Position numbers and translations under genes: made by a program
Shown: piece by piece, positions 16,707 to 32,499 of the stretch
How the letters are laid out: every line of letters starts with the position of its first letter
Numbering within the stretch: the first letter of the stretch is position 1
Origin: Sphingopyxis indica
Lineage (GTDB): Bacteria > Pseudomonadota > Alphaproteobacteria > Sphingomonadales > Sphingomonadaceae
Length of the DNA: 64,000 nt
NCBI RefSeq assembly: GCF_900188185.1
Contig: NZ_FZPA01000001.1
Span: 620,001 to 684,000 of the forward strand
Direction: 5' to 3'
Notes under the pieces: generated by a model
Seen by the model: the letters and a program-made list of their open reading frames with translations, nothing else
Databases searched by the model: none
Told to the model about the DNA's origin: nothing

Positions 16707-17178
16707 ACTCGCACAAAGACACGAAGCCACAAAGGGGGATATGTTGGCAGGCGATGTCGAAGAATTGGCAAGCATTGCAATCGACTGCGGACTCTCACTC
16801 CACAAGGAGTTGGGACCAGGTTTGCTCGAAACCGTATATGAACTGCTGCTCTTCGAACTCATATGCGACCGCGGACTGCTGGTAGAACGGCAGAAGGTCG
16901 TTCCGATCCGGTTCCGGGGGCGTCTGCTCGACGAATGTTTTCGTATCGACCTGCTGGTGGAGGGGCGTCTGCTGATCGAATTGAAATCGACCGAACGGCA
17001 TGCGCCTGTGCACGCCAAACAGGTTCTGACCTATTTGCGATTGATGGATTTGCCGCTCGGCCTGTTGATGAACTTTGGCGCACCGACTTACAAGGAAGGG
17101 GTCAAGCGCCTCGCCAACGATTATTATCGACCATTTCATTCATAGGCCGTCTTTGTGGCTTCGTGTCTTTGTGCGAGT
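16707..17178. mobile_element. Single-gene GxxExxY cassette bounded by 28-bp perfect inverted repeats
   Basis: Bases 16707-16734 are the exact reverse complement of 17151-17178 (28 bp, within ACTCGCACAAAGACACGAAG and continuing to CACAAAG). A further TCGA lies just outside each arm. The only gene inside begins 6 bp after the left arm and stops 5 bp before the right arm. The left arm's end forms part of the ribosome binding site (AAAGGGGGAT then ATG). No transposase and no target duplication were found. Confidence 0.7.
16741..17145 (+). CDS. GxxExxY protein
   Basis: 134 aa. The family signature is at GPGLLETVYELLLFELICDR (G-x-x-E-x-x-Y). The following DECFRIDLLVEGRLLIELKS carries the D...E-x-K spacing of a PD-(D/E)XK nuclease-like fold (candidate catalytic D, E and K), and the C-terminus has HAKQVLTYLRLMDLPLGLLMNFG. 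GxxExxY proteins are widespread and small, related to the PDDEXK_3 family, and of unknown biological role. This copy is sealed inside a 28-bp inverted repeat directly after korB. Biochemical nuclease activity is inferred from fold only. Confidence 0.88.
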   Translation: MLAGDVEELASIAIDCGLSLHKELGPGLLETVYELLLFELICDRGLLVERQKVVPIRFRGRLLDECFRIDLLVEGRLLIELKSTERHAPVHAKQVLTYLRLMDLPLGLLMNFGAPTYKEGVKRLANDYYRPFHS

Positions 17179-17202
17179 ATCGAATGACCGAACAAAACCG
17201 TC

Positions 17203-18150
17203 GTGGATAATCTGACCCACAGCCTTGTCGGCGCGGTGCTTGGCCAGATGGGGCTCAAGCGCAAGACCGGCCTGGCGATGCCGACGCTGATCCTTGCAGC
17301 GAACCTGCCCGATATCGACGCGGGCTGTGCGATTTATGGCGTCGAGTCGCTCGCGATGCGGCGTGGGATAACGCACGGGCCGATAGCCCTGCTGGTCCTG
17401 CCGCTGCTGCTCTGGGCGGCGATGCTTGCCTTCGATGCATGGCAGGCGCGGCGCGGCAAAAGGCCCGCGGCACGCCTGCCCTTGCACAAGGGGTGGCTGC
17501 TCGCGCTCGCCTATGTCGGTTGCCTCAGCCATCCCGCGCTCGACTGGCTCAACAATTACGGCATCCGGCTGCTCGAGCCGTTCAGCCATCGCTGGTTCTA
17601 TGGCGACACGCTGTTCATCATCGACCTGTGGATATGGATCGCGCTGGGAGCGTCGGTCTGGCTGTCGCTGCGGCGAGAGCGCGGCGGCTCGGCGGACTGG
17701 ACGCGCCCCGCGTGGATCGGATTTGCCGGGGTTTGCGCCTATATTTTCGCCAATGGCCTGATCACGGGACGCGCCGAAGCGCAGGCGGCCGAGCTGTTGC
17801 GCCGTGCAGGACAGGACAGGGCATTGGTCGTGGCGAGCCCGCCGCCCTTTGAGTTCTGGAGACGCGATATTTTCTGGCGCGGCAGCGGCTATTACGGCAG
17901 CGGCGTCTTCGTGCTTGGTGCGGGCGCGACCGTCGAGCCGGGACGTCCGACCGGGATGGGCGACATGCGGCTCCGCCTGTGGGCGAAGGCCGATCCCGCC
18001 GCGCGCGCCTTTCTCTTCTGGGCACGGATGCCGGTCGCGACGCCCGACGGCGATGCGATCGTGCTGACCGACCAGCGTTTCGCGCAACCTTTGACGCGGG
18101 GCAGCTTTATGGTGCGGGTGACGGCGCCGCAAAATCCCCGCTCCGAATGA
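17203..18150 (+). CDS. YdjM/DUF457-type membrane-bound metal-dependent hydrolase
   Basis: 315 aa. N-terminal half has four to five membrane helices with histidine/aspartate motifs of the family: NLTHSLVGAVLG (H), AANLPDID (D-x-D), RRGITHGPIALL (H) and CLSHPALDWLNNYG (H...D). The C-terminal third (about 200-315) is soluble, presumably periplasmic. The start GTG 17203 reads MDNLTHSLVG, matching the family's conserved N-terminus. E. coli YdjM is LexA-regulated; I saw no LexA box here. Substrate unknown. Confidence 0.8.
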   Translation: MDNLTHSLVGAVLGQMGLKRKTGLAMPTLILAANLPDIDAGCAIYGVESLAMRRGITHGPIALLVLPLLLWAAMLAFDAWQARRGKRPAARLPLHKGWLLALAYVGCLSHPALDWLNNYGIRLLEPFSHRWFYGDTLFIIDLWIWIALGASVWLSLRRERGGSADWTRPAWIGFAGVCAYIFANGLITGRAEAQAAELLRRAGQDRALVVASPPPFEFWRRDIFWRGSGYYGSGVFVLGAGATVEPGRPTGMGDMRLRLWAKADPAARAFLFWARMPVATPDGDAIVLTDQRFAQPLTRGSFMVRVTAPQNPRSE

Positions 18151-18236
18151 CGGCGCCGCGCGGCTTGCGGGCATGACGCCATGACACCGCGCGACAGGTG
18201 ATTGTCACGTCGAAAGCTTTGCGGCAGGAAGGCAAT

Positions 18237-19517
18237 ATGAACACGCATGTCAGTCCGAAACGCGGCAAGGGCTTGCTGCGCGCCGACCGGGCGTTCCGTT
18301 CGGGCGGCGGGTTCGCGTGGCTGATGAAACATGCGCCGAGCGGGCTTTTTCACCGCATGCTCGACCGCATCGACGCCGGCCTCGATTCGGGGACGATCGA
18401 GGGGCATTTGCCCGACGGCAGCGTCCGCCTGCTCGGGGGCCGTGGCAAAGGCCCGGTCGCGATCGTGCATCTTCACAGCTGGGCGGCGCTCGTGCGCCTT
18501 GCCCTGTCGGGATCGGTGGGATGGTATCGCGCGTGGGACAAGGGCGAATGGTCGTCGCCCGACCCGGTGCCGCTGTTCGACCTGTTCATGCGCAACGGCG
18601 AAGCGCTCGGCGAATCGGGACGCGCGCGCGGGCCGTGGCGCTGGATGAACCGCCTCGCGCACCGGCTCAATCGCAACGATCGCCGCGGGGCGAAGCGGAA
18701 CATTCACGCTCATTATGATCTGGGCAATGATTTCTATCGCTTGTGGCTCGACGCGGGGATGAATTATTCGAGCGCGCGCTTTGCGGCGCCCGATCAGACG
18801 CTCGAAGAGGCGCAGGCCGCGAAGGTCGATGCCATCCTCGACCGGCTCGACCTCAGATCGGGCAGCCGGCTGCTCGAAATCGGTTGTGGCTGGGGCGCGC
18901 TCGCCGAGCGTGCGGTCGAGCGCCACGATGTGCTCTATACGGGTATCACCCTTTCGCCCGCGCAGGCGGAGATCGCCGCAGCGCGATTGCAGGCGGTCGA
19001 TCTTGGCGGGCGTTCGCGGATCGAGCTTTGCGACTATCGCGATGCCCAAGGACCCTATGACGCGATCGCGAGCGTCGAAATGGTCGAAGCGGTGGGCCAG
19101 GGCTATTGGCCCGCCTATCTCGACGCGATCGCGCGCCTGCTGCGCCCGGGGGGCAAAGCGGCGATCCAGTATATCCTGATCGACGACGCGCTGTTCGAGC
19201 GCTACGCGCTGAGCAGCGACTTCATCCAGGCCTATATTTTTCCGGGCGGCTGCCTGATTTCGGAAAGCCGGTTTCGCGCGCTCGCCGAAGCGCGCGGCCT
19301 CAAGTGGCGCAACGTGCGGCGTTTCGGCGGCGACTATGCGGAAACGCTGCGCCAATGGCGCGAGCGTTTCGACGCCGCCGTCGCGGGCAATCAGCTGCCC
19401 GCGGGTTTCGACGAGCGCTTCGTGCGGCTCTGGCGCTATTATCTGCAATATTGCGAGGGCGGCTTTCGCGGCGGCGGCATCGACGTCGCGCAGGTCACGC
19501 TCGAAAAGACGGGCTGA
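18237..19517 (+). CDS. cfa: Cyclopropane-fatty-acyl-phospholipid synthase
   Basis: ATG 18237 (preceded by AGGAAGG) gives 426 aa; an upstream in-frame start at 18198 is less likely. The enzyme adds a methylene from S-adenosylmethionine to unsaturated membrane lipids. Visible motifs: NIHAHYDLGNDFYRLWLDAG and MNYSSARF of the CFA family, then the SAM-binding loop LLEIGCGWGALAE, and SVEMVEAVGQGYWPAY. The gene is followed 19 bp later by a serine hydrolase gene and probably shares its transcript. Confidence 0.92.
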   Translation: MNTHVSPKRGKGLLRADRAFRSGGGFAWLMKHAPSGLFHRMLDRIDAGLDSGTIEGHLPDGSVRLLGGRGKGPVAIVHLHSWAALVRLALSGSVGWYRAWDKGEWSSPDPVPLFDLFMRNGEALGESGRARGPWRWMNRLAHRLNRNDRRGAKRNIHAHYDLGNDFYRLWLDAGMNYSSARFAAPDQTLEEAQAAKVDAILDRLDLRSGSRLLEIGCGWGALAERAVERHDVLYTGITLSPAQAEIAAARLQAVDLGGRSRIELCDYRDAQGPYDAIASVEMVEAVGQGYWPAYLDAIARLLRPGGKAAIQYILIDDALFERYALSSDFIQAYIFPGGCLISESRFRALAEARGLKWRNVRRFGGDYAETLRQWRERFDAAVAGNQLPAGFDERFVRLWRYYLQYCEGGFRGGGIDVAQVTLEKTG

Positions 19518-19536
19518 AGCAGCAGGGGAGAGGATA

Positions 19537-20709
19537 GTGCGACGAATTTTGGCGGCGGCGCTTCTGTGCGCGGCGGCGGCGGGCGGTTCTGACCCCGCCT
19601 ACACCCAGACGAACGATAAATTACCGGAGGATCTGAACGTGCTGTTTTGGAGCCAGGATCAACGCGACGCCGCTTTCCGCACGATGGAGAGCGTGCCGAA
19701 GGTGGTCGTCCATACCATCAAGGCGGGCGGCAACGCCTATCCGATGCCGCAGGGCGCGCCGATCGACCTCGGTGTCGATGTCGATGCCTATATGGCGAGC
19801 CAGCGCAACGCCGGGCTGATCATCGTTCAGGACGGGAAGATCCGGCTGGAAAAATATGCGCTCGGCTATGGGCCGGAAGGGCGCTGGACGAGCTTTTCGG
19901 TCGCGAAGAGCTTCACCTCGACGCTCGTCGGCGCGGCGGTGAAGGACGGCTATATCAAGAGCCTCGACGACAAGGTTTCGGCCTATATTCCGGGGCTTGA
20001 GGGTTCGGCCTATGACGATGTCAGCGTGCGCCAGCTGCTGACCATGACCTCGGGCGTCAAGTGGAACGAGGATTATACCGATCCCAAATCCGACGTCGCG
20101 CAGTTCAACCTGCAAAAGCCCGTGCCCGGCGAAGACATAACGGTCAGCTATATGAAGAGCTTGCCGCGCGAAGCTCCGGCAGGGTCGAAATGGGTTTACA
20201 AGACCGGCGAGACCAATTTGATCGGGGTGCTCGTGTCGAGCGCGACCGGCAAGACGCTGTCCGATTATCTGTCCGAAAAGGTGTGGAAGCCGTTCGGGAT
20301 GGAACAGGACGCGGTGTGGATGCTCGGCGCCACGGGGCACGAGATCAGCGGCTGCTGCATGTCGGCACGCCTGAAGGATTATGCGCGTTTCGGCCTGTTC
20401 ATCCTCGGCGGCGGCGTCGCGGGCGGCGAGAAGGTACTGCCCGACGGCTGGCTCGCGGCGGCGACCACCAAGCAGGCCGATATCGACCAGCCGGGGCGCG
20501 GTTATGGCTATCAATGGTGGACCAACGACGACGGCAGCTTCGCCGCGCAGGGGATTTTCGGCCAGGGCATTTTCATCGACCCCAAGCGCCGGCTGGTGAT
20601 CGCGTCGAACGGCAACTGGTCGACCGCGACCGATCCCGAGGGCGTCGGATCGGCGCGCGAGGCCTTTTACAAGGCGGTGCAGGCGGCGGTCGACGCGGAA
20701 GCGCGATAG
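19537..20709 (+). CDS. Beta-lactamase-related serine hydrolase (class C-like), secreted
   Basis: GTG 19537 gives 390 aa with a signal peptide (RRILAAALLCAAAAGGSDPA). The Ser/Lys pair is in WTSFSVAKSFTSTL (S-x-x-K), a Tyr-type motif is likely in the YKTGETN region, and the third-strand motif is replaced by AAQGIFGQGIFIDP. Such proteins are typically periplasmic esterases or peptidases rather than true beta-lactamases. An earlier start at 19336 would lie inside cfa and is rejected. Confidence 0.85.
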   Translation: MRRILAAALLCAAAAGGSDPAYTQTNDKLPEDLNVLFWSQDQRDAAFRTMESVPKVVVHTIKAGGNAYPMPQGAPIDLGVDVDAYMASQRNAGLIIVQDGKIRLEKYALGYGPEGRWTSFSVAKSFTSTLVGAAVKDGYIKSLDDKVSAYIPGLEGSAYDDVSVRQLLTMTSGVKWNEDYTDPKSDVAQFNLQKPVPGEDITVSYMKSLPREAPAGSKWVYKTGETNLIGVLVSSATGKTLSDYLSEKVWKPFGMEQDAVWMLGATGHEISGCCMSARLKDYARFGLFILGGGVAGGEKVLPDGWLAAATTKQADIDQPGRGYGYQWWTNDDGSFAAQGIFGQGIFIDPKRRLVIASNGNWSTATDPEGVGSAREAFYKAVQAAVDAEAR

Positions 20710-20748
20710 TTTCCATTCGTAGCCCCAGCTTTCGCCGGGGCGACGAGT

Positions 20749-21141
20749 TCAGGCGGTCGCCGGCACCGTCGCCGATACGCGCTGTGCCATCCACGCGGCG
20801 GCCAGCGGGACGATCACGCCCAGCGCAATCATCCACCATGTGTCGCCCAGCGTGGCGGCGCGGTAGAGGCCCGCGCCGATCACCGCGCCGGCGACGATCC
20901 AGCCCGCGCCGGGGTTCGCCGAGGCGCGCATCGCGAGCCAGCCGCCGGCGAAGGTGCCGGCGAACCAGCCGACAAGCAGCGCGACCGTCGCGCCCGCCGG
21001 GATCAATATTTCGCCGGTTTCGACGTCATAGACCTCGGGCGAAATCTCGCCCCCCGCATATTGCGCGATCCAGATCAGCGCGAAGGCGACGAAAATGCCG
21101 ACGATCGTCGCGACGAGGAAACGCAGGAAGGTGCGGGCCAT
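20749..21141 (-). CDS. Four-helix membrane protein, unknown function
   Basis: 130 aa with hydrophobic stretches at about 5-27, 48-68, 78-97 and 102-118. The loop between the first two contains YAGGEISPEVYDVETGEILI. No enzyme signature. It converges on the serine hydrolase gene; the 39-bp gap holds a small hairpin (GCCCC 20722-20726 with GGGGC 20737-20741). SDR and purF lie upstream on the same strand, about 60 bp away, so transcription from them is possible. Confidence 0.6.
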   Translation of the reverse strand: MARTFLRFLVATIVGIFVAFALIWIAQYAGGEISPEVYDVETGEILIPAGATVALLVGWFAGTFAGGWLAMRASANPGAGWIVAGAVIGAGLYRAATLGDTWWMIALGVIVPLAAAWMAQRVSATVPATA

Positions 21142-21204
21142 GGCTGAAATCCTTGCTGAAACGCGTTTGTGCGGCTCGCCTAACGCGGGAAGGCAAAGAT
21201 CGCG

Positions 21205-21930
21205 TTAAGCCTCTTCCATCACCTTGGGAAGCTCGTGGAAATCGGTGCTGTCGAAACCTTCGATCATCAGCTTCGCGACGAACGCACCGACCGTCTCCGG
21301 GTCCTTGATGCTCTGCGGGTCCTCGCCCGGATAGGCGCGCGCGCGCATCTGGGTGCGCGTCGCGCCGGGGTTGAGGATCGCGGTGCGGACGTTCGAGATG
21401 TTGCGCATCTCGGCGCCATAGCTCGTCACCAGCGCCTCGAGCGCCGCCTTCGACGCCCCATAGGCGCCCCAATAGGCGCGTGGGGCACGCGCGACGCTGC
21501 TCGACAGCGCGAGCAGGCGGCCGTGCGCGGCGCGGCGGAGCAGCGGGTCGAAGTTGGCAATCAGCGCCTGCTGCGCCACGACATTGAGCGTCAACAGCCT
21601 GTTGAACTCCTTGCCGTCGATCGCTCCGACCGGCGTGAGCGTGCCGAGCATCGCGGCGTTGAGCACTAGCATGTCGAGCTGCTGCCAGCGCTCGGCCATC
21701 GCGCTGGCGAGCCGCGCGATGCTGTCGCCGTCGGTCAGGTCGAGCGGGGCGATCGTCGCGCTGCCGCCCGCCGCGTGGATGCGATCCTCGAGCTCTTCGA
21801 GTCCGCCCGCCGTGCGCGCGGTGATCACGACATGCGCGCCGCGCGCCGCGAGCGAATAGGCGATCGCGGCGCCGATGCCGCGGCTCGCGCCGGTGACGAG
21901 CGCGACCTGGCCGGCCAGTTCTTCAGACAT
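21205..21930 (-). CDS. SDR-family NAD(P)-dependent oxidoreductase
   Basis: From ATG 21930 (MSEELAGQVALVTGASRGIG), 241 aa; ATG 21939 is an equally readable alternative. The cofactor motif TGASRGIG is at the N-terminus, NAAMLG replaces the usual NNAG, and the catalytic triad is Ser (LALSSSVARAPRAYWG), Tyr (YWGAYGASKAAL) and Lys. Follows purF by 4-13 bp on the same strand, so it is in one operon with it. Substrate unknown. Confidence 0.9.
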   Translation of the reverse strand: MSEELAGQVALVTGASRGIGAAIAYSLAARGAHVVITARTAGGLEELEDRIHAAGGSATIAPLDLTDGDSIARLASAMAERWQQLDMLVLNAAMLGTLTPVGAIDGKEFNRLLTLNVVAQQALIANFDPLLRRAAHGRLLALSSSVARAPRAYWGAYGASKAALEALVTSYGAEMRNISNVRTAILNPGATRTQMRARAYPGEDPQSIKDPETVGAFVAKLMIEGFDSTDFHELPKVMEEA

Positions 21931-21943
21931 TTTGGTCATTTGG

Positions 21944-23401
21944 TCAGACAACCCGTTCGGCAAGCAGCGAAAATTGATCCTCGAGCGCATGTTCCTCGAA
22001 ATCGGTCAGCGTCGTCGGATAATCGCCGGTGAAACAGGCGTCGCAATATTGCGGGCAGCGTTCCTGGCGCTTGCTTTCGCCGAGCGCGCGGTAGAGGCCG
22101 TCGATGGTCAGGAAGGACAGGCTGTCGGCGTTGATGAAATTCGCCATCTGGCCGACGGTCATCTGCGCCGCGAGCAGCTTCGCGCGTTCGGGCGTGTCGA
22201 CACCGTAGAAGCAGCTGTGCGACGTCGGCGGGCTTGCGATGCGCATATGCACTTCGGCGGCGCCGGCTTCGCGCATCATCTGCACGATCTTGAGGCTGGT
22301 GGTGCCGCGCACGATCGAATCGTCGATCAGCACGATCCGCTTGCCCGCGATCAGCGCGCGGTTGGCGTTGTGCTTCAGCTTGACGCCAAGGTGGCGGACC
22401 TTGTCGCCGGGCTGGATGAAGGTTCGCCCCACATAATGCGAGCGGATGATGCCGAGTTCGAACGGGATGCCCGATTCCTGCGCATAGCCGATCGCCGCGG
22501 GCGTGCCCGAATCCGGAACCGGGATGACGAGGTCGGCCTCGACCGGGTTTTCGCGCGCCAGCTCGGCGCCGATCGCCTTGCGCACCGAATAGACGCTTGT
22601 GCCGTCGACGATCGAATCGGGGCGCGAGAAATAGACATATTCAAAGATGCACGGCCGCGCCGGGCGCTCGGCAAAAGGATGATGCGAGGTCAGTTGTCCG
22701 TCGCGGATGATGACGAGCTCGCCGGGTTCGACCGAGCGCACGAATTCGGCGCCGACGACGTCGAGCGCGACGGTTTCGGAGGCGAGAATATGCGCATCGT
22801 TCAGCTTGCCGATGACGAGCGGGCGGATGCCGAGCGGGTCGCGGCAGCCGATCATGCCCTCGGCGGTCAGGCAGATCAGCGAATAGGCGCCCTCGACCTG
22901 TTTCAGCGCGTCGATGAAGCGGTCGATCAGCGTGCGATAGCTCGACGTCGCGACGAGGTGGATGATCACCTCGGTATCGCTGGTCGATTGGAAGATCGAG
23001 CCGCGACGGACCAGAATCTTGCGCAGCGCCGCGGCGTTCGAGATATTGCCGTTATGCGCGACCGCGAACCCGCCGGTCGCGAGGTCGGCGAACAGCGGCT
23101 GGACGTTGCGCAGCGCGGTCTCGCCCGTCGTCGAATAGCGGACATGGCCGATCGCCGCGGCGCCGGCGAGCTGCCGCATGATGTCGTCGCGGTCGAAATT
23201 GCCCGCGACATGACCCATCGCGCGGTGCGTGTGGAATTCCTTGCCGTCGAAGGCGGTGATGCCGGCGGCCTCCTGACCGCGATGCTGGAGCGCGTGGAGG
23301 CCGAGCGCGACCACCGCGGCGGCGCTGTCGGCGCCATGGATACCAAAGACGCCGCACTCCTCACGGAGCTTGTCGTCGTCGAAAGGGTGGGTCGTCAGCA
23401 T
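21944..23401 (-). CDS. purF: Amidophosphoribosyltransferase
   Basis: From ATG 23401, 485 aa; the open frame reaches further upstream to 23695 but that part has no homology-like pattern. The first committed step of purine synthesis: PRPP plus glutamine to phosphoribosylamine. A propeptide (MLTTHPFDDDKLREE) precedes the catalytic Cys16 (CGVFGI), the glutamine amidotransferase nucleophile after cleavage. The PRPP-binding loop is VLIDDSIVRGTTS. Cysteines SHSCFYGVD and CPQYCDACFTGDYP suggest the Fe-S containing form. Divergent from hisI, with 145 bp between. Confidence 0.95.
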   Translation of the reverse strand: MLTTHPFDDDKLREECGVFGIHGADSAAAVVALGLHALQHRGQEAAGITAFDGKEFHTHRAMGHVAGNFDRDDIMRQLAGAAAIGHVRYSTTGETALRNVQPLFADLATGGFAVAHNGNISNAAALRKILVRRGSIFQSTSDTEVIIHLVATSSYRTLIDRFIDALKQVEGAYSLICLTAEGMIGCRDPLGIRPLVIGKLNDAHILASETVALDVVGAEFVRSVEPGELVIIRDGQLTSHHPFAERPARPCIFEYVYFSRPDSIVDGTSVYSVRKAIGAELARENPVEADLVIPVPDSGTPAAIGYAQESGIPFELGIIRSHYVGRTFIQPGDKVRHLGVKLKHNANRALIAGKRIVLIDDSIVRGTTSLKIVQMMREAGAAEVHMRIASPPTSHSCFYGVDTPERAKLLAAQMTVGQMANFINADSLSFLTIDGLYRALGESKRQERCPQYCDACFTGDYPTTLTDFEEHALEDQFSLLAERVV

Positions 23402-23546
23402 GTCGATCCAGAATATGTTGGGGGCGGCAACTGCCGCGCATATAGGAGCGCCGAGGCCAAATGTCGCCCCCCCAATTTGGACTCTTTGATGACAGGCGCG
23501 ATGCGAGGGGTGACAGCACCGCCATTGGTGCCGTAAAGCCGCGCGC

Positions 23547-23927
23547 ATGGAGCAGAATAGGGACAGCACCGACCGTTTCCTGCCGCGCTTCGATGCCGCG
23601 GGTCTCGTCACCGCGATCGTCGTCGATGCGGATACGCGCGCGCTGTTGATGGTCGCGCATATGAACGCCGAGGCGATCGAGCGGACGCGCGCCACCGGTC
23701 AGGCGCATTTCTGGTCGCGATCGCGCCGGGCGCTGTGGCGCAAGGGCGAGACGTCGGGCAACGGGCTCAATGTGGCCGAAATGCGCGTCGATTGCGATCA
23801 GGACGCGCTGTTGCTCGTCGTGCATCCCGCGGGCCCTGCCTGCCACACGGGGCGCCGGTCCTGCTTCTATCGCCGGATCGACGCGGACGGGGGCCTGACC
23901 TTCCTCGACGACGATGTGCAGGGCTAG
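23547..23927 (+). CDS. hisI: Phosphoribosyl-AMP cyclohydrolase
   Basis: 126 aa. Opens the purine ring of phosphoribosyl-AMP in histidine synthesis. Family motifs: [38 protein letters not shown] and the metal-binding cysteines [11 protein letters not shown] and [15 protein letters not shown]. This is the stand-alone HisI form without the fused HisE pyrophosphatase. Its last 14 bases overlap the start of the next gene. Confidence 0.93.
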
Positions 23928-24453
23928 CCTGCCGTTTTTGGCTGCGGTGTTCCTGCTCGGCGGCTGCGACCGGGCTTCGACTGCGGATCGAGAAAAGGCG
24001 GTCGACGCGCGCAGTCCGCTGGAAATCGCGGCGCGCGAGCGCGGCGTCGTTCAGCCCGAGTCCGAGGAGCTTACGGGCGTTTTCGAGCGCGCCCACGATC
24101 TCGGCCGCGATGCGATGTGCGTCGTGCCCGACGGCGAGGGGAGGTGGCGCTTCGCACTGACCGCAGCTTTCGGCTCGCGCCTTGCGTGCCGGGCACATGG
24201 GGACGTCACGCGCGACGGCGACGAATGGCGCCTGAGCTTTGCCGGCGTCGACGATTGTGCGGTGACGCTGCGCGAGGACGACGACGAGTTGCGATTGCCC
24301 GGACGCCTGCCCTCTCAGTGCGACAGCCTCTGTCCCGGGCGCACCACGCTTGCCGGGTTGCGTCTGCCGCGCGCGAGTTGGTCGGCCGCCGATGCGAGGG
24401 GCTTGCGGATGCGCGATGGACAGGGCAATATCGTGCAACCCTGTGCCGACTGA
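23914..24453 (+). CDS. Predicted lipoprotein, unknown function
   Basis: 179 aa beginning [20 protein letters not shown], a signal peptide with lipobox LGGC; the protein is predicted to be lipid-anchored. The remainder is acidic and contains several cysteines ([31 protein letters not shown]). These may form disulfides outside the cytoplasm. Start overlaps the end of hisI by 14 bp. No domain recognised. Confidence 0.7.
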
Positions 24454-24484
24454 GCCGCGGCATTTCCCTTCATCCCTGCGAGCC

Positions 24485-24500: not shown

Positions 24501-24515
24501 CGGAAACTAATCCTG

Positions 24516-24953
24516 ATGCTTATGACCGAAGAATACGGCCACGCTCATATCGACACGCCCGATCATCTGGGACGCGAGCAGTACAGCATCACCGACCTGT
24601 CGACCGAATTCGGTGTCACGGCCCGGGCGCTGCGCTTCTATGAGGACGAAGGGCTGATCAGCCCGTCGCGCAAGGGGCTGTCGCGCATCTATTCGAAACG
24701 CGACCGCGCGCGGCTCGCGTGGATATTGCGCGCCAAGCGCACCGGTTTCAGCCTGGCCGACATTCGCGAGATGATCGACCTTTACGATGTCGGCGACAAT
24801 CGCAAGCTGCAGCGGCAGGTGACAATCGAGAAATGCCAGGAGCGCATCGCGCTGCTGCGCCGCCAACGCGACGACATCGACAGTGCGGTCGAGGAATTGA
24901 CGCGGTTCATCGAAACGGTGAAAAAGGTCGAGGCAAAGAGCCTGAAGCCATGA
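24516..24953 (+). CDS. MerR-family regulator (LiuR-like)
   Basis: 145 aa (or 143 from the second Met). Residues 22-90 form the MerR winged helix: YSITDLSTEFGVTARALRFY, EDEGLISPSRKG, then YSKRDRARLAWILRAKRTGF. A coiled-coil dimerisation region follows (LQRQVTIEKCQERIALLRRQ). The effector domain is short and lacks metal-binding cysteine pairs, matching LiuR-type regulators of catabolic acyl-CoA genes. The acyl-CoA dehydrogenase downstream and leucine genes nearby fit. Its last codons lie in the inverted-repeat element 24937-25205. Confidence 0.88.
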   Translation: MLMTEEYGHAHIDTPDHLGREQYSITDLSTEFGVTARALRFYEDEGLISPSRKGLSRIYSKRDRARLAWILRAKRTGFSLADIREMIDLYDVGDNRKLQRQVTIEKCQERIALLRRQRDDIDSAVEELTRFIETVKKVEAKSLKP

Positions 24954-25205
24954 GTTTGAACTACCTTGACGGAGCCGATTTTAGCCCAGTGCAAGGCGCG
25001 AGGAGAGGTGCGATGCGGCCCATCGTGCCCGACGAGCAACGCAGCAATGGGCCAAAAGCGGCCCGCCCCTCCGGGGTTGCACTGCGAAGCCCGCCGGACG
25101 TCGTCGCGGGTCTTGCACGGGCTCCCGGCCCGCGCGGCGCCCCGCTCCTCGCCGGCGGGCTTCGCAGTGCAATCAAGGTAGTTCAAACTCATGGCTTCAG
25201 GCTCT
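24937..25205. repeat. 269-bp element with 33-bp perfect inverted repeats
   Basis: 24937-24969 is the exact reverse complement of 25173-25205 (33 bp, containing GAAGCCATGAGTTTGAACTA). A second perfect inverted repeat of 21 bp is nested inside (25077-25097 and 25152-25172) and abuts the right outer arm. The left arm contains the last five codons and stop of the MerR gene. The interior also has GGCCCAT...ATGGGCC pairs. No ORF in it is credible. It is either a MITE-like insertion that supplied the gene's end, or an inverted duplication of that end. Confidence 0.75.
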
Positions 25206-25287
25206 AAACAAAAGGCCGGCTGACCCCGGACCCTCCCCGGGCAAGAAAAGCGCACCCTATCCATCTGATTTATCGGAAAGATTTTTC

Positions 25288-27087
25288 ATGCCCGTCTATC
25301 GCGCTCCCGTCAAAGACACGCTCTTTCTGTTGAACGAAGTGCTCGGCATCGAGCGCTATGCGAACCTCCCGGGTTTCGCCAATGCGACCCCCGACATGGT
25401 CGAGGCGGTGCTGACCGAGGCGGCGAAATTCTGTGAGGAAGTGCTGTTTCCGCTCAACTATTCGGGCGACCAGCAAGGCTGCACGCGCCACGACGACGGT
25501 TCGGTGACGACCCCCGAAGGGTTCAAACAGGCCTATAAGGCCTATTGCGAGGCCGGCTGGCCGCTGCTCAACCAGCCCGAGGCTTTCGGCGGGCAGGCGC
25601 TGCCGCACGTCGTCGGCTTTCCGGTCGAGGAATATCGGATGGCGGCGAATCAGGCCTTCGCCATGTATCCGGGGCTGACGCAGGCGGCAGTGTCGGCGCT
25701 GCTCGTCAAGGGATCGGACGAGCAAAAGGCCAAATATGTGCCGAAGATGGTGTCGGGCGAGTGGGGCGGGACGATGAACCTGACCGAGCCGCAGTGCGGC
25801 ACCGACCTCGGCCTGATCCGCACCCGCGCCGAGCCGCAGGCCGACGGCAGCTATGCGATCAGCGGCACCAAGATCTTCATCTCGTCGGGCGAGCACGACC
25901 TCACCGACAATATCATCCACCTCGTGCTGGCGAAAACGCCGGGGGCACCCGACAGTTCGAAGGGGATTTCGCTGTTCATCGTGCCCAAGTTCCTGGTGAA
26001 CGACGATGGTTCGCTCGGCGCGCGCAATGGCGTGTCGTGCGGGTCGATCGAGCACAAGATGGGCATCCACGCCAACGCGACCTGCGTGATGAACTACGAC
26101 GGCGCGACCGGCTGGCTCGTCGGCGACGAGAATAAGGGGCTCGCCGCGATGTTCATCATGATGAACGCGGCGCGGCTCGGCGTCGGCATCCAGGGGCTGG
26201 GTCAGGCCGACATCGCCTTTCAGAACGCGGTGCAATATGCGCAGGACCGCCGCCAGGGCCGCGCGCTGACCGGGCCGCAGGACCCCGAAGCCAAAGCCGA
26301 CCCGCTGTTCGTCCATCCCGACGTGCGCCGCATGTTGATGGACGGCAAGGCGGTGGTCGAAGGGCTGCGCGCGCTTTGCCTGTGGGGCGCGTTGCAGGTC
26401 GATCTGTCGCATATGGCCGAGAGCGAGGAGGAGCGGCAGCAGGCCGACGACCTCGTCAGCCTGCTGACCCCGGTGATCAAGGGCTATGGCACCGACAAGG
26501 GCTATGAGGTCGCCACCAACGCGCAGCAGGTGTTCGGCGGCCACGGCTACATCGAAGAGCAGGGGATGAGCCAATATGTCCGCGATGCCCGCATCACGAT
26601 GATCTATGAAGGCGCGAACGGCGTTCAGGCGATGGATCTCGTCGGGCGCAAGCTCGCGCAGAATGGCGGGCGGGCGGTTCAGGCGCTGTTCGGACAAGTC
26701 GATGCCGAATGCGCCGCGGCAAAGGACGGTGCGCTCGGCGACTTCGCGACCCGGCTCGAAAAGGCGAATGGCGAGCTCAAGGCCGCGACGATGTGGTTCA
26801 TGCAGAACGGCATGACGAACCCGAACAACGTCGGCGCCGGCGCGCATCACTATATGCACATCATGGGCATCGTCGCGCTGGGCCTGATGTGGCTGCGCAT
26901 GGCCGAAGCCGCGCAGAAGGCGATTGCCGAGGGCCGCGGCGACAAGGCCTTCCTCGAAGCGAAGCTGATGACCGCGCGGCATTTCGCCGAACGCTTCATG
27001 CCCGACGCGGGCGCGCTGCGCCGCAAGATCGAGGCGGGCAGCGAGGCGATGATGGAATTGGCGCCCGAGCAATTCTTCGCCGCCTGA
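25288..27087 (+). CDS. Acyl-CoA dehydrogenase (DmdC-like large form)
   Basis: 599 aa, longer than typical short-chain enzymes, with an added C-terminal domain as in 3-methylmercaptopropionyl-CoA dehydrogenase-like proteins. FAD/substrate motifs: MNLTEPQCGTDLGLIRTRAE, ISGTKIFISSGEHDLT, and the Glu-bearing segment MIYEGANGVQAMDLVGRKL. It transfers electrons from the acyl-CoA alpha/beta carbons to an electron-transfer flavoprotein. True substrate not identifiable. A LiuR-like regulator gene lies upstream, separated by the inverted-repeat element. Confidence 0.9.
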   Translation: MPVYRAPVKDTLFLLNEVLGIERYANLPGFANATPDMVEAVLTEAAKFCEEVLFPLNYSGDQQGCTRHDDGSVTTPEGFKQAYKAYCEAGWPLLNQPEAFGGQALPHVVGFPVEEYRMAANQAFAMYPGLTQAAVSALLVKGSDEQKAKYVPKMVSGEWGGTMNLTEPQCGTDLGLIRTRAEPQADGSYAISGTKIFISSGEHDLTDNIIHLVLAKTPGAPDSSKGISLFIVPKFLVNDDGSLGARNGVSCGSIEHKMGIHANATCVMNYDGATGWLVGDENKGLAAMFIMMNAARLGVGIQGLGQADIAFQNAVQYAQDRRQGRALTGPQDPEAKADPLFVHPDVRRMLMDGKAVVEGLRALCLWGALQVDLSHMAESEEERQQADDLVSLLTPVIKGYGTDKGYEVATNAQQVFGGHGYIEEQGMSQYVRDARITMIYEGANGVQAMDLVGRKLAQNGGRAVQALFGQVDAECAAAKDGALGDFATRLEKANGELKAATMWFMQNGMTNPNNVGAGAHHYMHIMGIVALGLMWLRMAEAAQKAIAEGRGDKAFLEAKLMTARHFAERFMPDAGALRRKIEAGSEAMMELAPEQFFAA

Positions 27088-27133
27088 GCCGTTTTTCACG
27101 CAACCATCGCCGCCGCCATGCGTGGCGTCGGCG

Positions 27134-28630
27134 ATGAGCGAGGCCGAACTCTCCCCCATTGTCGAAGCGGGGCGTAATTGCTGGCGGATCGAGCGCGCGA
27201 GCAAGGCGCGGATGATCGTCGATGCCGCCGACTATTATGCGCTGCTCGCGCGGCTGATGGCGGGCGCGAAGGAGCGCATCCTGCTTATCGGCTGGGATTT
27301 CGACCCGCGCATCGCGCTGACCCCCGATGCCGACGGCGGCGGCGAGGCGCTCGGCCATTATATGCTGCGGCTCGCGAAAAGCCGCCCCGACCGCGACATC
27401 GACATTCTCCGCTGGAATTTCGGCGGGCTGAAGCAACTCGCCATGCCGAGTATCGTCGCGCTGATCCTGCGCTGGAAGATGACGCGCTCGATCAGCTTCC
27501 GCCTCGATAGCGCGCATCCGGCGGGGTGCAGCCATCACCAGAAGGTCGCGGTGTTCGACGATCATCTCGCGGTGTGCGGCGGGATCGACGTCGGCTTGCG
27601 GCGCTGGGACACGCGCGAGCACAAGGACGACGACCCGTGCCGCGTCGCGCCCGACGGCAAGCGCTATATGCCGTGGCACGATTCGACGATGATCCTTGCG
27701 GGGCCGGTGGGCGAAGCGCTCGCCGAACTCGGCAACGAGCGCTGGCAGCGCGCGACGAACAAGCGGCTGCGCGACCTGAGCGGCACCGGCGAGAATTGGC
27801 CCGACGAACTCGATCCCGATTTCCGCGATGTCGACGTCGCCATTTCGCGCACGCGCGCCGAATATGACGGCTATGGCGAAATCCGCGAGATAGAAAAGCT
27901 CTACCTCGACCTCATAGCGGGCGCCAAGCGTTTCATCTATTTCGAGAATCAATATTTCACATGTGCAAAGATCGCTGCGGCGATCGGCGAGCGGCTGAAC
28001 GAGGACGACCCGCCCGAATTCGTGCTGGTGATGCCCAGGACCGCCGACGGCTGGCTCGAGCAGATGGCCATGGACGCCGCGCGCGTCGAACTGGTGCGCG
28101 AGATAGCCAAGGCGCGGCACGGCGACCGGCTGCGTGTCTATGTACCGCTTACCGCGGGCGGCGATCCGATTTACGTTCATTCCAAGACCGCGATCGTCGA
28201 CGATCGGCTGATCCGCGTCGGATCGGCCAATCTCAACAACCGCTCGATGGGACTCGACAGCGAATGCGATGTGACGATCGACGCCGCGCTATCGGCCAAT
28301 CGCGGTGTCGAACCGACGATCCGCAAGCTGCGCGAGTCGCTGATCGCCGAGCATCTGGGGGTCGAGCCCGACGCGGTCGCGCGCCATTTCGACCGCACGG
28401 GGTCGCTGATCGACACGATCGAGGCGCTGCGGGGCGACGGCCGTTCGCTCGAACTGCTCGACCTGATCGCGCCGGGGCCGTTCGACGAATTCATCGCCGA
28501 GAATGAATTGCTCGACCCGACGCGCCCCAATGCGATGTTCGAGGGGATCGCCGGGCGCGGCCTCAAGAAAAGCTGGCACCGCGGCAAGGCATGGATGACG
28601 CGGCACCGGCCGTTCCGGCGGCGCGGCTGA
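27134..28630 (+). CDS. Phospholipase D-family protein
   Basis: 498 aa from ATG 27134 (GTG 27122 is also possible). Two HKD motifs are visible: HHQKVAVFDDHLAVCGGIDV and VHSKTAIVDDRLIRVGSANL. There is one motif in each half, as in true PLD-family enzymes, and NNRSMG follows the second. No signal peptide. Likely hydrolyses or transfers phosphatidyl groups; could instead be a cardiolipin-synthase-like enzyme. The preceding gene ends 47 bp upstream. Confidence 0.88.
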   Translation: MSEAELSPIVEAGRNCWRIERASKARMIVDAADYYALLARLMAGAKERILLIGWDFDPRIALTPDADGGGEALGHYMLRLAKSRPDRDIDILRWNFGGLKQLAMPSIVALILRWKMTRSISFRLDSAHPAGCSHHQKVAVFDDHLAVCGGIDVGLRRWDTREHKDDDPCRVAPDGKRYMPWHDSTMILAGPVGEALAELGNERWQRATNKRLRDLSGTGENWPDELDPDFRDVDVAISRTRAEYDGYGEIREIEKLYLDLIAGAKRFIYFENQYFTCAKIAAAIGERLNEDDPPEFVLVMPRTADGWLEQMAMDAARVELVREIAKARHGDRLRVYVPLTAGGDPIYVHSKTAIVDDRLIRVGSANLNNRSMGLDSECDVTIDAALSANRGVEPTIRKLRESLIAEHLGVEPDAVARHFDRTGSLIDTIEALRGDGRSLELLDLIAPGPFDEFIAENELLDPTRPNAMFEGIAGRGLKKSWHRGKAWMTRHRPFRRRG

Positions 28631-28648
28631 CATTTCCCCGAAGGCCGC

Positions 28649-29500
28649 TCAGTCCGCCAGCGACAGGATATGCCGTGCCTGCTTGAGGTGCGGCGCGTCG
28701 ATCATCTTGCCGTCGATCTGCAGCACGCCGGCGCCGGGATTGGCGGCAAAGGCATCGACGATCGCCTGCGCTCGCGCCACTTCGTCGGCGGACGGAGTGA
28801 AGGCGGCGTTGATCGGCGCGACCTGCGATGGGTGGATCGCCATCATCCCGGTGAAGCCGTCGCGCCGCGCGCGCGCCGCATAGGCGGAAAGCCCGCCCTC
28901 GTCCTTGATCGCCGGAAAGACGGTGTCGATCGCCGCGACCCCCGCGCCGTGCGCGGCGAACAGGGTCAGCGCGCGCGCGACCCGATAGGGTTCGGTATAG
29001 CTGCCGTCGGCCTCGCGGCTCGTCGCCGCGCCGATCGCGGCGGGCAGGTCCTCGGCGCCCCAGGTCAGCCCGACGAGCCGCTCGCGCGCCTCGCGATAGC
29101 TGCCGAGGGTGAAGATTGCCGCCGGGGTTTCGGTCGCGATCGGCAGGATGGGGGGCAGATGCCCCGCGTCGCCGCCCTCGCTGCGCAATATCGTGTCGAG
29201 CTGCGCGATGCTCGGCGCGCCTTCGGCCTTGGGCAGCATGATCGCGTCGGGGGCCGCGGCGGCCACCGCGGCGACGTCGGCGGCGGTCATGTGCCCGTCG
29301 AGCGGGTTGACGCGCACCAGCGTGATGACCTCGCGCGTGCCGGCAAGGTAATCGGCGACGGCTTCGCGCGCCATGTCCTTATTGGCGGGCGACACCGAAT
29401 CCTCGAGATCGAGGATGATCGCGTCGGCGCCCGATGCCGCGGCTTTGGCAAAGCGTTCGGGGCGGTCGCCGGGGACGAAGAGGAGGGAACGAAGTCGCAT
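28649..29500 (-). CDS. CoA-ester lyase (HpcH/HpaI, citrate-lyase beta-like)
   Basis: 283 aa from ATG 29500 ([20 protein letters not shown]). Family of malyl-, citramalyl- and methylmalyl-CoA lyases. Motifs: LFVPGDRPERF, DAIILDLEDSVSP (metal-binding E/D), VNPLDGH, AIMLPKAEG, LTWGAEDL, GMMAIHPSQVAPIN. ATG 29500 overlaps the upstream stop by one base (TGATG). Together with the MaoC hydratase it could handle a C4/C5 hydroxyacyl-CoA, but the substrate is inference. Confidence 0.87.
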   Translation of the reverse strand: MRLRSLLFVPGDRPERFAKAAASGADAIILDLEDSVSPANKDMAREAVADYLAGTREVITLVRVNPLDGHMTAADVAAVAAAAPDAIMLPKAEGAPSIAQLDTILRSEGGDAGHLPPILPIATETPAAIFTLGSYREARERLVGLTWGAEDLPAAIGAATSREADGSYTEPYRVARALTLFAAHGAGVAAIDTVFPAIKDEGGLSAYAARARRDGFTGMMAIHPSQVAPINAAFTPSADEVARAQAIVDAFAANPGAGVLQIDGKMIDAPHLKQARHILSLAD

Positions 29501-29952
29501 CAGCCGGCCTTTCGCTTGATAAGGGCCGAACGCTCGCACTGGCAGACGAGTTCATCGCGCTGGTTGAGGCAGCGATGCAGAAAGGTGACGATCCCCGCGT
29601 TCGGCCGCGATTTCGATTCCTTGAGCGCGATGACTTTGCTCTCCGCGCGCAGCGTGTCCCCTAGGAACACCGGTTTCGGCATTACCAGCTTGTCGTAGCC
29701 CAGATTGGCGACGAGCGTGCCGAGCGTCGTGTCGCCGACCGACAGCCCGACCATCAGGCTGAAGGTGAAGGTGCCGTTGACCAGGATTTGCCCGAACTCC
29801 GACGCCTTCGCCGCTTCGATGTCGAGGTGCAGCGGCTGCGGATTGTGCGTCATCGTCGTGAAGAGCAGATTGTCGGTCTCGGTCACCGTGCGGCGGATGT
29901 CGTGCGCGACGCGCTCGCCGACCTGCCATTCGTCGAAGTATTTTCCTGCCAT
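29500..29952 (-). CDS. MaoC-family dehydratase (hot-dog fold)
   Basis: 150 aa. MaoC/enoyl-CoA hydratase type with the catalytic Asp/His pair in [11 protein letters not shown], then [20 protein letters not shown]. The N-terminus [20 protein letters not shown] is conserved in mesaconyl-CoA-hydratase-like members. Last but one gene of the minus-strand operon. A 161-bp palindromic repeat element lies between it and the biotin-carboxylase gene upstream. Confidence 0.87.
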
Positions 29953-29956
29953 TTAT

Positions 29957-30117
29957 CCCTCTCCCTCGGGGAGAGGGTTGCGAAGACTTGCCGGCTTGCC
30001 GGCCAGTCGCAGCTGGGTGAGGGGCTTGGCCCTCACGATAGCTCGCAACCCCTCATCCAACTCCGCCTGGCCGCTGAAGCGGCAAGGCTCCAAATCCTTC
30101 TCCCTCGGGGGAGAAGG
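29957..30117. repeat. 161-bp palindromic repeat element between operon genes
   Basis: Each end is a hairpin (CCCTCTCCCTCGGGGAGAGG at 29957-29976; CCTTCTCCCTCGGGGGAGAA at 30096-30115). The two halves are imperfect inverted copies of each other over about 50 bp, including GGGTGAGGGG versus CCCCTCATCC. This resembles dispersed palindromic elements of sphingomonads. It would fold into a large hairpin in the operon mRNA between the biotin-carboxylase and MaoC genes. Confidence 0.65.
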
Positions 30118-30121
30118 GGTG

Positions 30122-31960
30122 TTACTCCGCCGCTTCGATCCGCACCAGCAGCGCTTCGACCTGCACCTGCGCCCCCGCTTGCGCGTTGAGTTCGGCGACC
30201 GTGCCGTCGAACGGCGCGGTCAGACTGTGTTCCATCTTCATCGCCTCGAGCGTCAGCAACTTCTGACCCTTGGTGACGGCATCGCCCGCAGAAACGTCGA
30301 CCGCGATGATCTTGCCCGGCATGGGGGAGAGGATCGCGCCGTCGCCCGCCGCGCCGCTCGCGCCGCCCGCCGCGCGCCACGGCGCGAGCTGCCATACCGA
30401 GCCGCGCTCGGCGACGAGCATCGCCGGGGCGGGATCGTCGGTGCCGGGGCCGTGCAGTGCGATGTCGACGCGCTTGCCGTCGAGCAGGAACGGCGCCGAA
30501 CGGACGTCGGGCGCGTTGAGGCGAAACCCCGAGAGAAGCGAGCGCGGCACCATCGCCATCGCCGCATTGGTAAGCGCCTGCGGTGAAGGTTCGGGCGCGG
30601 CGGTCATCGCCTCGCCGTCGCGGCCGATCAGCCCGGTATCGACCGCGCCGGCGACGAAATCGGGATGGTCGAGCGCGTTGATGAGGAAGGCCGAATTACT
30701 CTTCACCGGCCACACCGCGCTGTCTTCGAGCATTTCGGACAGCGTCTCGCGCGCTTCCTCGCGGGTATCGCCGTGCGCGATCAGCTTGGCGATCATCGGA
30801 TCATAGAAGGGCGAGACCTCGGCGCCTTCATAGACGCCGGTGTCGACGCGGCCGATATGCTCGGGGAGCTGAAACAGTTCGAGCGGGCCGGTCGAGGGGA
30901 GGAAGCCCTTCGCCGGGTCCTCGGCATAGAGGCGCGCCTCCATCGCCCAGCCGTCGATCGTGAGTTCGTCCTGCGTCAGCGGGATCGGCTCGCCCGACGC
31001 GACGCGCAGCTGCCATTCGACAAGGTCGACGCCGGTGATCTCCTCGGTCACCGGATGCTCGACCTGCAGCCGCGTGTTCATTTCCATGAACCAGATGCGG
31101 TCGGCGCGCAGGCCCTCCGACGCGTCGGCGATGAACTCGATCGTCCCTGCACCGACATAATCGACCGCCTTCGCGGCGCGCACCGCGGCGGCGCAGAGCT
31201 CGGCGCGCGTGGCTTCGTCCATGCCTGGGGCGGGGGCTTCCTCGATCACCTTCTGGTGGCGGCGCTGGAGCGAGCAGTCGCGCTCGAACAGGTGGACGAC
31301 GTTGCCGTGACTGTCGCCGAATATCTGCACCTCGATATGGCGCGGGGTCAGGATATATTTCTCGATCAGCACATGCTCGTTGCCGAACGAGGCGGCCGCT
31401 TCGCGCTGGCACGAGGCGAGCGCGTCGGCGAAGTCCGCCGGAGCATCGACCTTGCGCATCCCCTTGCCGCCGCCGCCCGCGACTGCCTTGATGAGCACCG
31501 GATAGCCGATCATGGCGGCTTGTTCGGCGAGGAAGATGGGGTCCTGATTTTCGCCCATATAGCCGGGCGTCACCGGCACCCCCGCCTCGGCCATCAGCCT
31601 CTTGGCGGCGTCCTTCAGGCCCATCGCGGTGATCGACGAGGGGTTGGGTCCGACCCACACCAGCCCGGCATCGGTCACGGCCTGCGCGAACTCGGCATTT
31701 TCGGAGAGGAAGCCATAACCCGGATGGATCGCCTCGGCCCCGGTCTCCTTGGCGGCAGCGATGATCTTCTCGCCGATCAGATAGGATTCGCGCGCGGGCG
31801 ACGGTCCGATATGCACGGCTTCGTTGGCCTCGCGCACATGCAGCGCCTTGGCATCGGCATCTGAGTAGACCGCAACGGTCCTGATACCCATTTCGCGCGC
31901 GGTGCGGATGATACGACAGGCGATCTCGCCGCGATTGGCGATGAGGAGGGAGGTGATCAC
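30122..31960 (-). CDS. liuD: Acyl-CoA carboxylase biotin-containing subunit (methylcrotonyl-CoA type)
   Basis: From GTG 31960 (VITSLLIANRGEIACRIIRT), 612 aa. Biotin carboxylase N-domain, ATP-grasp (GGGGKGMR), carboxylase C-domain (EMNTRLQVEHPVTE) and a C-terminal biotinyl domain with the carrier lysine in LEAMKMEHS. Partner of the carboxyltransferase gene; with ivd nearby it most likely belongs to leucine degradation (3-methylcrotonyl-CoA carboxylase alpha). The GTG overlaps the DUF559 stop (GTGA), and its ribosome binding site (GGGGAGGA) lies in the repeat of the cassette. An acetyl- or propionyl-CoA specificity is possible but less likely. Confidence 0.87.
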   Translation of the reverse strand: MITSLLIANRGEIACRIIRTAREMGIRTVAVYSDADAKALHVREANEAVHIGPSPARESYLIGEKIIAAAKETGAEAIHPGYGFLSENAEFAQAVTDAGLVWVGPNPSSITAMGLKDAAKRLMAEAGVPVTPGYMGENQDPIFLAEQAAMIGYPVLIKAVAGGGGKGMRKVDAPADFADALASCQREAAASFGNEHVLIEKYILTPRHIEVQIFGDSHGNVVHLFERDCSLQRRHQKVIEEAPAPGMDEATRAELCAAAVRAAKAVDYVGAGTIEFIADASEGLRADRIWFMEMNTRLQVEHPVTEEITGVDLVEWQLRVASGEPIPLTQDELTIDGWAMEARLYAEDPAKGFLPSTGPLELFQLPEHIGRVDTGVYEGAEVSPFYDPMIAKLIAHGDTREEARETLSEMLEDSAVWPVKSNSAFLINALDHPDFVAGAVDTGLIGRDGEAMTAAPEPSPQALTNAAMAMVPRSLLSGFRLNAPDVRSAPFLLDGKRVDIALHGPGTDDPAPAMLVAERGSVWQLAPWRAAGGASGAAGDGAILSPMPGKIIAVDVSAGDAVTKGQKLLTLEAMKMEHSLTAPFDGTVAELNAQAGAQVQVEALLVRIEAAE

Positions 31961-32421
31961 AGCCGATCCTCCCCAGCCTGTCCTCGCGAAGGCGGGGAGG
32001 GAGGGGGACCATCCGAAGGATGGTGGAGGGGCACAGGCGGTTTGCCTTGCCGTTGCCTGATCTTCACCATGCGCTCCTCGCAAACCTCGACGATTCTCGC
32101 CACGACTGTCTCCAAATCCTTCATGATCGCCGGCGCGGGAATGCGCAGGGTCGCAACATGTTGCGACCGCAGAAAATCCGACCGCGCTTCATCGCTCTTT
32201 GCCGCAGCGGCTCCGTCATGTGTTCGCCCATCGACCTCAATAGCGAGATGCACGGCAGCGCAGTAGAAATCGAGAATATAGATACCCGCTGGGTGCTGTC
32301 GCCGATATTTGAACCCGCCGGGGCGTTGCCTAAGCCTGCGCCAGAGCATCGTTTCTGGCAGGTTCATTTCGCTTCGCAGCTTGCGGGCGTGTTTGAGTGT
32401 ATCGCGGGGGCCGGTGATCAT
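31957..32421 (-). CDS. DUF559 (VSR/PD-(D/E)XK-like) protein
   Basis: 154 aa starting at ATG 32421. The core (RSEMNLPETMLWRRLRQRPG, FKYRRQHPAGIYILDFYCAA, LAIEVDGRTHDG) has the D/E-x-D pattern of very-short-patch-repair-like and DUF559 endonuclease folds. The last 30 residues (PPVPLHHPSDGPPPSPPSRG to the stop) are encoded by the left inverted repeat itself. The gene reads through that repeat to the start codon of the biotin-carboxylase gene. No known role. It lies between the two subunit genes of one acyl-CoA carboxylase, an unusual place. Confidence 0.85.
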   Translation of the reverse strand: MITGPRDTLKHARKLRSEMNLPETMLWRRLRQRPGGFKYRRQHPAGIYILDFYCAAVHLAIEVDGRTHDGAAAAKSDEARSDFLRSQHVATLRIPAPAIMKDLETVVARIVEVCEERMVKIRQRQGKPPVPLHHPSDGPPPSPPSRGQAGEDRL

Positions 32422-32476
32422 CTCCCGTGCCCCTCCACCATCCTGCGGATGGTCCCCCTCCCCGTTCCGGGGAGGA
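31967..32476. mobile_element. Inverted-repeat-flanked DUF559 cassette in the carboxylase operon
   Basis: 31999-32034 and 32427-32462 are inverted copies of each other with one mismatch in 36 (around CCTCCACCATCCTGCGGATG). Farther out both arms end in GGGGAGGA or its complement (31967-31974 and 32469-32476). The whole unit is about 510 bp with one gene. It sits 24 bp after the carboxyltransferase stop and directly before the biotin-carboxylase start. Its arms supply a ribosome binding site to the next gene. No transposase is present. Confidence 0.65.
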
Positions 32477-32499
32477 CTATATTGCGCGCCGCCATCAGA

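Follow-up and report, generated by a model that had tools for sequence, protein, structure and literature searches.

Many bacterial genomes are rich in short palindromic repeats, some classes of which have no known enzyme. Among the systems that have one, the closest to the elements described here are RAYT/REPIN systems (REPtrons), in which a small gene present in few copies lies between inverted repeats and is kept by selection, the same repeats are dispersed as gene-free inverted pairs, and the number of repeats is reported to be higher where the gene is present (PMC8049555, for RAYT). Insertion sequences and their MITEs also have terminal inverted repeats, with few coding and many short non-coding members, while free-standing homing endonucleases are small single-domain nuclease genes whose sites vary between relatives. 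CGTC REPs are made of a CGTC tag, a stem of 8-9 bp, a loop of 4-5 nt and a CCA tail; no dedicated transposase is apparent for them, and the study that describes them leaves their mover open (Di Nocera 2013, PMC3733652). Last, VsrA of Caulobacter carries a DUF559 domain with a PD-(D/E)XK fold, and flanking repeats go unmentioned in the accessible text of its description (PMC12907096).

We analysed a stretch of 64,000 nucleotides of the Sphingopyxis indica genome (4.15 Mb in 37 contigs), hereafter the window. It holds two cassettes that share with these systems the features listed above, namely small selected genes between inverted repeats, dispersed gene-free copies of the repeats and sites that vary between relatives. 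They differ from RAYT/REPIN in that the enzyme is a PD-(D/E)XK (or, in related loci, GIY-YIG) nuclease instead of an HUH tyrosine transposase, and in that the arms of the CRCRRAG type are tandem 8-bp units and not a GTAG-tagged hairpin. Indeed, no HUH (Y1) transposase gene lies between the cassette repeats, where the genes are PF13366 and PF04480, and inspection of the arms of the seven home-genome cassettes revealed no GTAG tag. In contrast to IS and MITEs there is no transposase, and the arms, mostly of 20-40 bp, stand directly beside a gene of 120-150 aa; in contrast to homing endonucleases, the cassettes have dispersed gene-free copies. We propose that they are the enzyme-coding members of dispersed inverted-repeat families, with a RAYT/REPIN-like organisation in which a nuclease replaces the transposase, and that the enzyme probably spreads or maintains its family.

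Two nuclease cassettes in the window

A first-pass annotation, made from the letters alone, had described two nuclease-like genes in tight inverted arms. Both are present (Table 1), with arms of 28 bp and 100% complementarity in cassette 1 and of 39 bp and 95% complementarity in cassette 2. With 3 mismatches allowed, the arm motif of each cassette had no match in the window besides the two arms of that cassette, and shuffled sequences gave 0 matches.

Table 1. Positions in the window of the two cassettes, their neighbours and a further inverted-repeat element
Feature	Position	Strand	Remarks
2-oxoacid:acceptor oxidoreductase beta subunit-like gene ("korB")	15653..16699	+	host gene upstream of cassette 1
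Left arm, cassette 1	16707..16734	+	three tandem 8-bp units, CRCRRAGN type
GxxExxY protein gene (PF13366, TIGR04256)	16741..17145	+	134 aa, profile match
Right arm, cassette 1	17151..17178	-	inverted copy of left arm
YdjM-like membrane protein gene	17203..18150	+	host gene downstream of cassette 1
Gene-free element	24937-25205		~270 bp
Biotin carboxylase gene	30122..31960	-	host gene after cassette 2; assumed GTG start overlaps DUF559 stop
DUF559 (Vsr-like) gene	31957..32421	-	154 aa, PF04480 profile match
REP-like arm, cassette 2	31999..32037	+	inside 3' end of DUF559 reading frame
Other arm, cassette 2	32424..32462	-	inverted-repeat search
Outer hairpin, cassette 2	32457-32475		CCTCCCC..GGGGAGG
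Carboxyltransferase gene (PF01039)	32500..34326	-	host gene before cassette 2

Profile searches identified the gene of cassette 1 as PF13366 (8.2e-33) and TIGR04256 (4.9e-33), with 114 bits against a curated cut-off of 35 for membership of the GxxExxY family, a PD-(D/E)XK-type nuclease according to its Pfam description. The gene of cassette 2 is PF04480 (2.2e-24; 85.9 bits against a curated cut-off of 20.6), that is, DUF559, also reported as a PD-(D/E)XK-type nuclease (PMC12907096). The two families had been called unrelated, which holds at the family level but not at the level of the nuclease type that both share. Insertion right after the stop codon of a host gene, another feature that they had been given in common, holds for cassette 1, which begins 7 nt downstream of the korB stop, and applies only loosely to cassette 2, where 78 nt that include a REP hairpin separate the carboxyltransferase stop from the start of the DUF559 gene. 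A ribosome-binding-like G run does lie at the arm edge of cassette 1 ('CACAAAGGGGGATATG'), as announced, and profile searches of both cassettes confirmed that neither contains a transposase. In cassette 2 each REP-like arm holds a palindrome; the outer hairpin and the arm next to it form the REP-like end of the cassette, while the distal arm is read through and translated as the C-terminal tail of the DUF559 protein.

In an alignment of 69 GxxExxY sequences, residues E30, Y33, D70, E80 and K82 are invariant and Q94 and Y98 nearly so. A structure model built with these 69 sequences reached a pLDDT of 91.5. No relative was found in the PDB by sequence, and fold matches were weak, none with E <= 0.001: the best was SSO0001 (best E 7e-3, TM 0.40-0.55 over four chains), followed by human MGME1 (E 0.04) and, lower still, lambda exonuclease. 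The QxxxY motif and these fold neighbours presumably place GxxExxY in the RecB/Cas4-like branch, whose substrates are single strands or ends. Purifying selection acts on both cassette genes, with a median dN/dS of 0.054 for GxxExxY (79 non-independent pairs) and of 0.13 for DUF559 (15 pairs).

Generality of the inverted-arm design

In the home genome, inverted arms scored above 100 shuffles at all three PF13366 and all four PF04480 matches, and each of the three resident GxxExxY genes has its own arm subtype. The same-genus survey yielded 65 GxxExxY matches in 40 of 80 genomes, from which two fragments, one further match and one broken copy were excluded. All 61 loci exceeded their own 50 shuffles, and 59 scored at least 18; these values use corrected gene boundaries, the profile boundaries, which wrongly run into the arms, having given 11 of 66. 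Arms compared across loci had a median score of 11.5 and a 95% value of 28.0 against a median of 27.5 for a locus's own arms, a null that is weakened by the likeness of arms between loci. Across phyla, 67 of 75 GxxExxY loci exceeded shuffles and eight did not, and 49 of the 75 had CRCnRA unit pairs on both sides, including loci from Cyanobacteria, Bacteroidota, Verrucomicrobia, Planctomycetes and Chloroflexi. This sample is the best 80 of 569 from one peptide pattern, less five skipped for short flanks, and is non-random, with many sphingomonads and a few loci that overlap the genus set.

For DUF559, 19 of 19 loci exceeded shuffles (L006 only just); they were drawn from 62 family matches and are mostly high-scoring. 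Over the whole phylum, in a set for which there is no usable null, the flanking inverted-repeat score was at least 16 in 15 of 30 loci and below 13, that is, with no clear arms, in the other 15. Hence the design is general for GxxExxY, while only part of DUF559 has it. Since about half of these phylum-wide loci (L097-L126) lack clear arms, the DUF559 family may include members without a link to repeats beside those that have one.

A background rate was obtained from 650 crude gene calls over 0.84 Mb of the home genome, of which two reached a score of 18: cassette 1 itself and murB, a gene with REPs around it. The gene caller missed the other cassettes, and the figure gauges background and not sensitivity. 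Set against these 2 of 650, the 61 of 61 GxxExxY and 19 of 19 DUF559 loci strongly support the suggestion that nuclease cassettes bounded by inverted repeats form a class, and the shuffles and the base rate together rule out a chance origin of the arms. In 860 kb scanned for inverted pairs there were 80, and each of the four whose arms enclose 250-600 bp is a nuclease cassette, two of GxxExxY and two of DUF559. Four longer pairs correspond to one IS (HTH_Tnp_1 and rve domains) and to three REP pairs, of which the first flanks an amidase gene, the second a 438-aa reading frame, and the third lies upstream of a DUF559 cassette.

The arrangement extends to a third kind of nuclease. Standalone GIY-YIG genes of the order lie between inverted palindromes that exceed shuffles at 26 of 33 loci; one more locus (L161) has no protein match and stands outside the 33. 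In the home genome, five of six GIY-YIG matches were tested: four exceeded shuffles and the fifth tied. By inspection, loci L145 and L198 have the features of CGTC REPs, the L145 arms reading CGTC-ATGCTGAA-CTTGT-TTCAGCAT-CCA, which fits their tag, stem, loop and tail, while other GIY-YIG loci have variant arms or untagged palindromes. CGTC REPs are reported to have no associated transposase (PMC3733652), whereas here standalone GIY-YIG genes stand between such repeats. At L139, L195-L198 and L135-L164 the palindromes are of differing subtype, several of them of the CGTC type.

Gene-free copies of the arms

The home genome has 102 copies of the CRCRRAG triple, against 3 of the reversed control. 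The 100 listed places reduce to 94 on merging and include 32 facing pairs. Three of the pairs enclose a GxxExxY gene and 29 have 24-165 bp inside, too short for the gene; in 21 of the 29 this length is 82-111 bp. The cassette-2 REP pattern was found at 30 places against 0 for its control. Three of these are overlapping duplicates, four are arms that belong to two DUF559 cassettes, and part of the remainder pair as gene-free inverted repeats. The first-pass annotation had held that gene-free arms, were they much commoner than arms with a gene, would refute a class of cassettes, and commoner they proved to be (29 against 3). By analogy with REPtron/REPIN and IS/MITE families, in which enzyme-coding members coexist with many non-coding ones, this excess is nevertheless compatible with such a class. 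The annotation had suggested a homing-like action; REPIN- or MITE-like spread fits the presence of gene-free copies at many sites better than classical homing does, and the earlier interpretation as a whole is partly supported.

The exact CRCRRAG pattern also gives four outward-facing pairs and 22 unpaired sites. The outward-facing pairs (G000 C14:28603, C28:25686, C31:371144 and C31:373051, the last two in L204) have their triples only 17-19 bp apart, an arrangement that resembles two joined elements or a circle junction. In some gene-free elements of the GxxExxY type (L044, L065) the arms enclose a second inverted repeat, whose core is CTTCGACAAGC.

Association of each repeat family with its nuclease

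The association of genes and repeats was assessed in 299 genomes of the phylum, the same for all comparisons, with stratification by family (CMH); the thresholds were set after the tables had been viewed. At least 2 CRCRRAG repeats were present in 35 of 37 genomes with GxxExxY and in 18 of 262 without it (35/2/18/244; OR 237), an association that was retained within families (CMH OR 84, p 1.6e-6, from 5 informative families only). Likewise, at least 10 CCCTCYCC hairpins were present in 66 of 86 genomes with a strong DUF559 match (E <= 1e-10) and in 11 of 213 without one (66/20/11/202; OR 61), 26 genomes with weaker matches being scored as without, and again the association was retained (CMH OR 62, p 9e-11, from 9 informative families only). 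Crossed pairs of nuclease and repeat were not significant in the 299 genomes (p 0.69 and 0.62; within families 0.45 and 0.60). For RAYT, the association with CRCRRAG repeats seen before stratification (OR 2.5, p 0.006) was not significant within families (p 0.29), and there was none with CCCTCYCC hairpins (p 0.064; within families 0.68). Our results show that each repeat family tracks its own nuclease, whereas within families it follows neither RAYT nor the other nuclease.

Exceptions were found on both sides. Two of the 37 GxxExxY genomes have no repeats, and 20 of the 86 strong-DUF559 genomes have fewer than ten hairpins. One genome (G138) has 133 CRCRRAG repeats and no detected GxxExxY gene, for which gene loss, an incomplete assembly or another enzyme are alternative explanations.

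Arms, proteins and insertion sites

Arm similarity follows protein identity among the 61 GxxExxY cassettes of the genus (Mantel r 0.46, 0 of 2000 permutations), also in the 1555 pairs below 75% identity (r 0.33, 0 of 2000). All 25 proteins with GAG as majority unit belong to one protein cluster and the 36 with AAG to others. The two unit classes can be told apart without error from protein positions 10 and 117; we do not take these as evidence of contact, since the separation follows the protein tree. Shared descent of whole cassettes may account for part of the covariation between arms and protein.

At the site between korB and the YdjM-like gene, one type of cassette was found in three genomes and another in five. 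Their proteins are 61-66% identical and both arms differ along with the gene, in flanks that are 79-89% identical to the window; from these sequences, replacement and joint divergence would both fit. The site of cassette 2 was surveyed in 18 hand-chosen genomes out of 60. It is empty in one (G322), with a 6-bp gap; five relatives have the orthologous cassette, and three have a different DUF559 gene, confirmed by Pfam, with like arms. Comparison by eye at the empty site revealed no clear target-site duplication. The remaining nine of the 18 relatives (L165-L182) have, by eye, other sequence without such arms and apparently with small genes in the gap between carboxyltransferase and biotin carboxylase (31960-32500), which seems to be an insertion-prone site in general.

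Proposed origin and upkeep of the repeat families

In the organisation that we propose, the nuclease would bind the arms of its own family and would nick or cut them, probably while they are in hairpin, cruciform or single-stranded form in the course of replication. Host repair would then copy or re-join the element, and the enzyme may thereby spread or maintain the repeat family at a low rate. It counts against the proposal that joining of DNA is not a known activity of nuclease folds alone.

The main rival is that homing-type nuclease genes invade pre-existing repeat pairs of other origin, the repeat being recognised by the enzyme and acting as a safe landing site. Arms far outnumber genes among facing pairs, REPs at gene ends are described as safe sites (PMC3733652), arm type tracks protein type and half of the phylum-wide DUF559 loci have no clear arms, all of which invasion would account for. 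We consider it rather unlikely nonetheless, because the repeats are found in nearly all genomes with the gene and in few without it, and because in one genome (G229) the only two sites with the exact pattern are the cassette's own arms: the gene comes with arms and no dispersed family was seen, although diverged copies could be missed. That a known transposase, RAYT or IS, moves the arms with the nuclease as mere cargo appears very improbable. REPs elsewhere are linked to RAYTs (PMC8266576, PMC8049555) and RAYT is associated with CRCRRAG repeats in the unstratified comparison, but within families it is associated with neither repeat family; moreover, Y1_Tnp is represented in the home genome by a single broken fragment and is absent from G183, and no larger gene lies inside any facing pair of neighbours among the 100 listed CRCRRAG sites (computed to 700 bp, with longer gaps by eye). 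Strong purifying selection on the nuclease genes also speaks against cargo. It agrees, in turn, with a regulatory role, in which the arms serve as terminators or stabilise mRNA and the nuclease, working on RNA or in repair, leaves the repeats unmoved. REPs lie mostly downstream of genes (PMC3733652) and VsrA of Caulobacter is tied to DNA damage (PMC12907096), as this would have it, yet the covariation of arms and protein, the joint difference of gene and both arms at the korB-YdjM site and the empty and filled sites of cassette 2 are left unexplained, and we give it equally little credence.

Returning to repeat families kept by their own nuclease, a wider generalisation can be offered tentatively: GxxExxY, DUF559 and GIY-YIG, at least three unrelated lines, may each be the dedicated enzyme of a major repeat class, CGTC REPs included, with transposase-free spread through cutting of hairpin or cruciform arms and host repair. 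Candidate enzymes are hereby named for three repeat classes. If the proposal is true, repeat upkeep or movement based on nucleases rather than on transposases would be widespread; a role would also be found for two large protein families to which none has been assigned. A search of the open-licence PMC literature, mostly in the form of titles and the beginnings of abstracts and hence no proof of absence, returned no report linking GxxExxY, DUF559 or GIY-YIG to such repeats. Nor is a link between nuclease and repeat reported in the available portions of PMC12306157, PMC12907096, PMC8934634, PMC8266576, PMC5082802 and PMC8049555, and a text search of a review on MITEs (PMC10969869) found the words nuclease, GIY-YIG, PDDEXK, REPIN and RAYT all absent.

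Other observations

Rfam gave no match between positions 14000 and 36000 of the window. In PADLOC, DUF559 had two weak matches and GxxExxY had none; PHROG gave one weak match, for DUF559. The sole Y1_Tnp (RAYT-like) match in the genome (G000 C31:11351-11569, L191) is partial and contains an internal stop.

The window holds a third inverted-repeat element, gene-free (Table 1), with perfect arms of 33 bp and a nested inverted repeat. We rejected it as part of the nuclease design, as it has no recognised gene and its arms are unrelated to those of the cassettes. It is not present at its site in the six relatives examined. Five other elements of this kind were aligned from the stretches scanned; they are similar in length and layout and fall into two sequence groups, and their arms differ between copies while remaining self-complementary.
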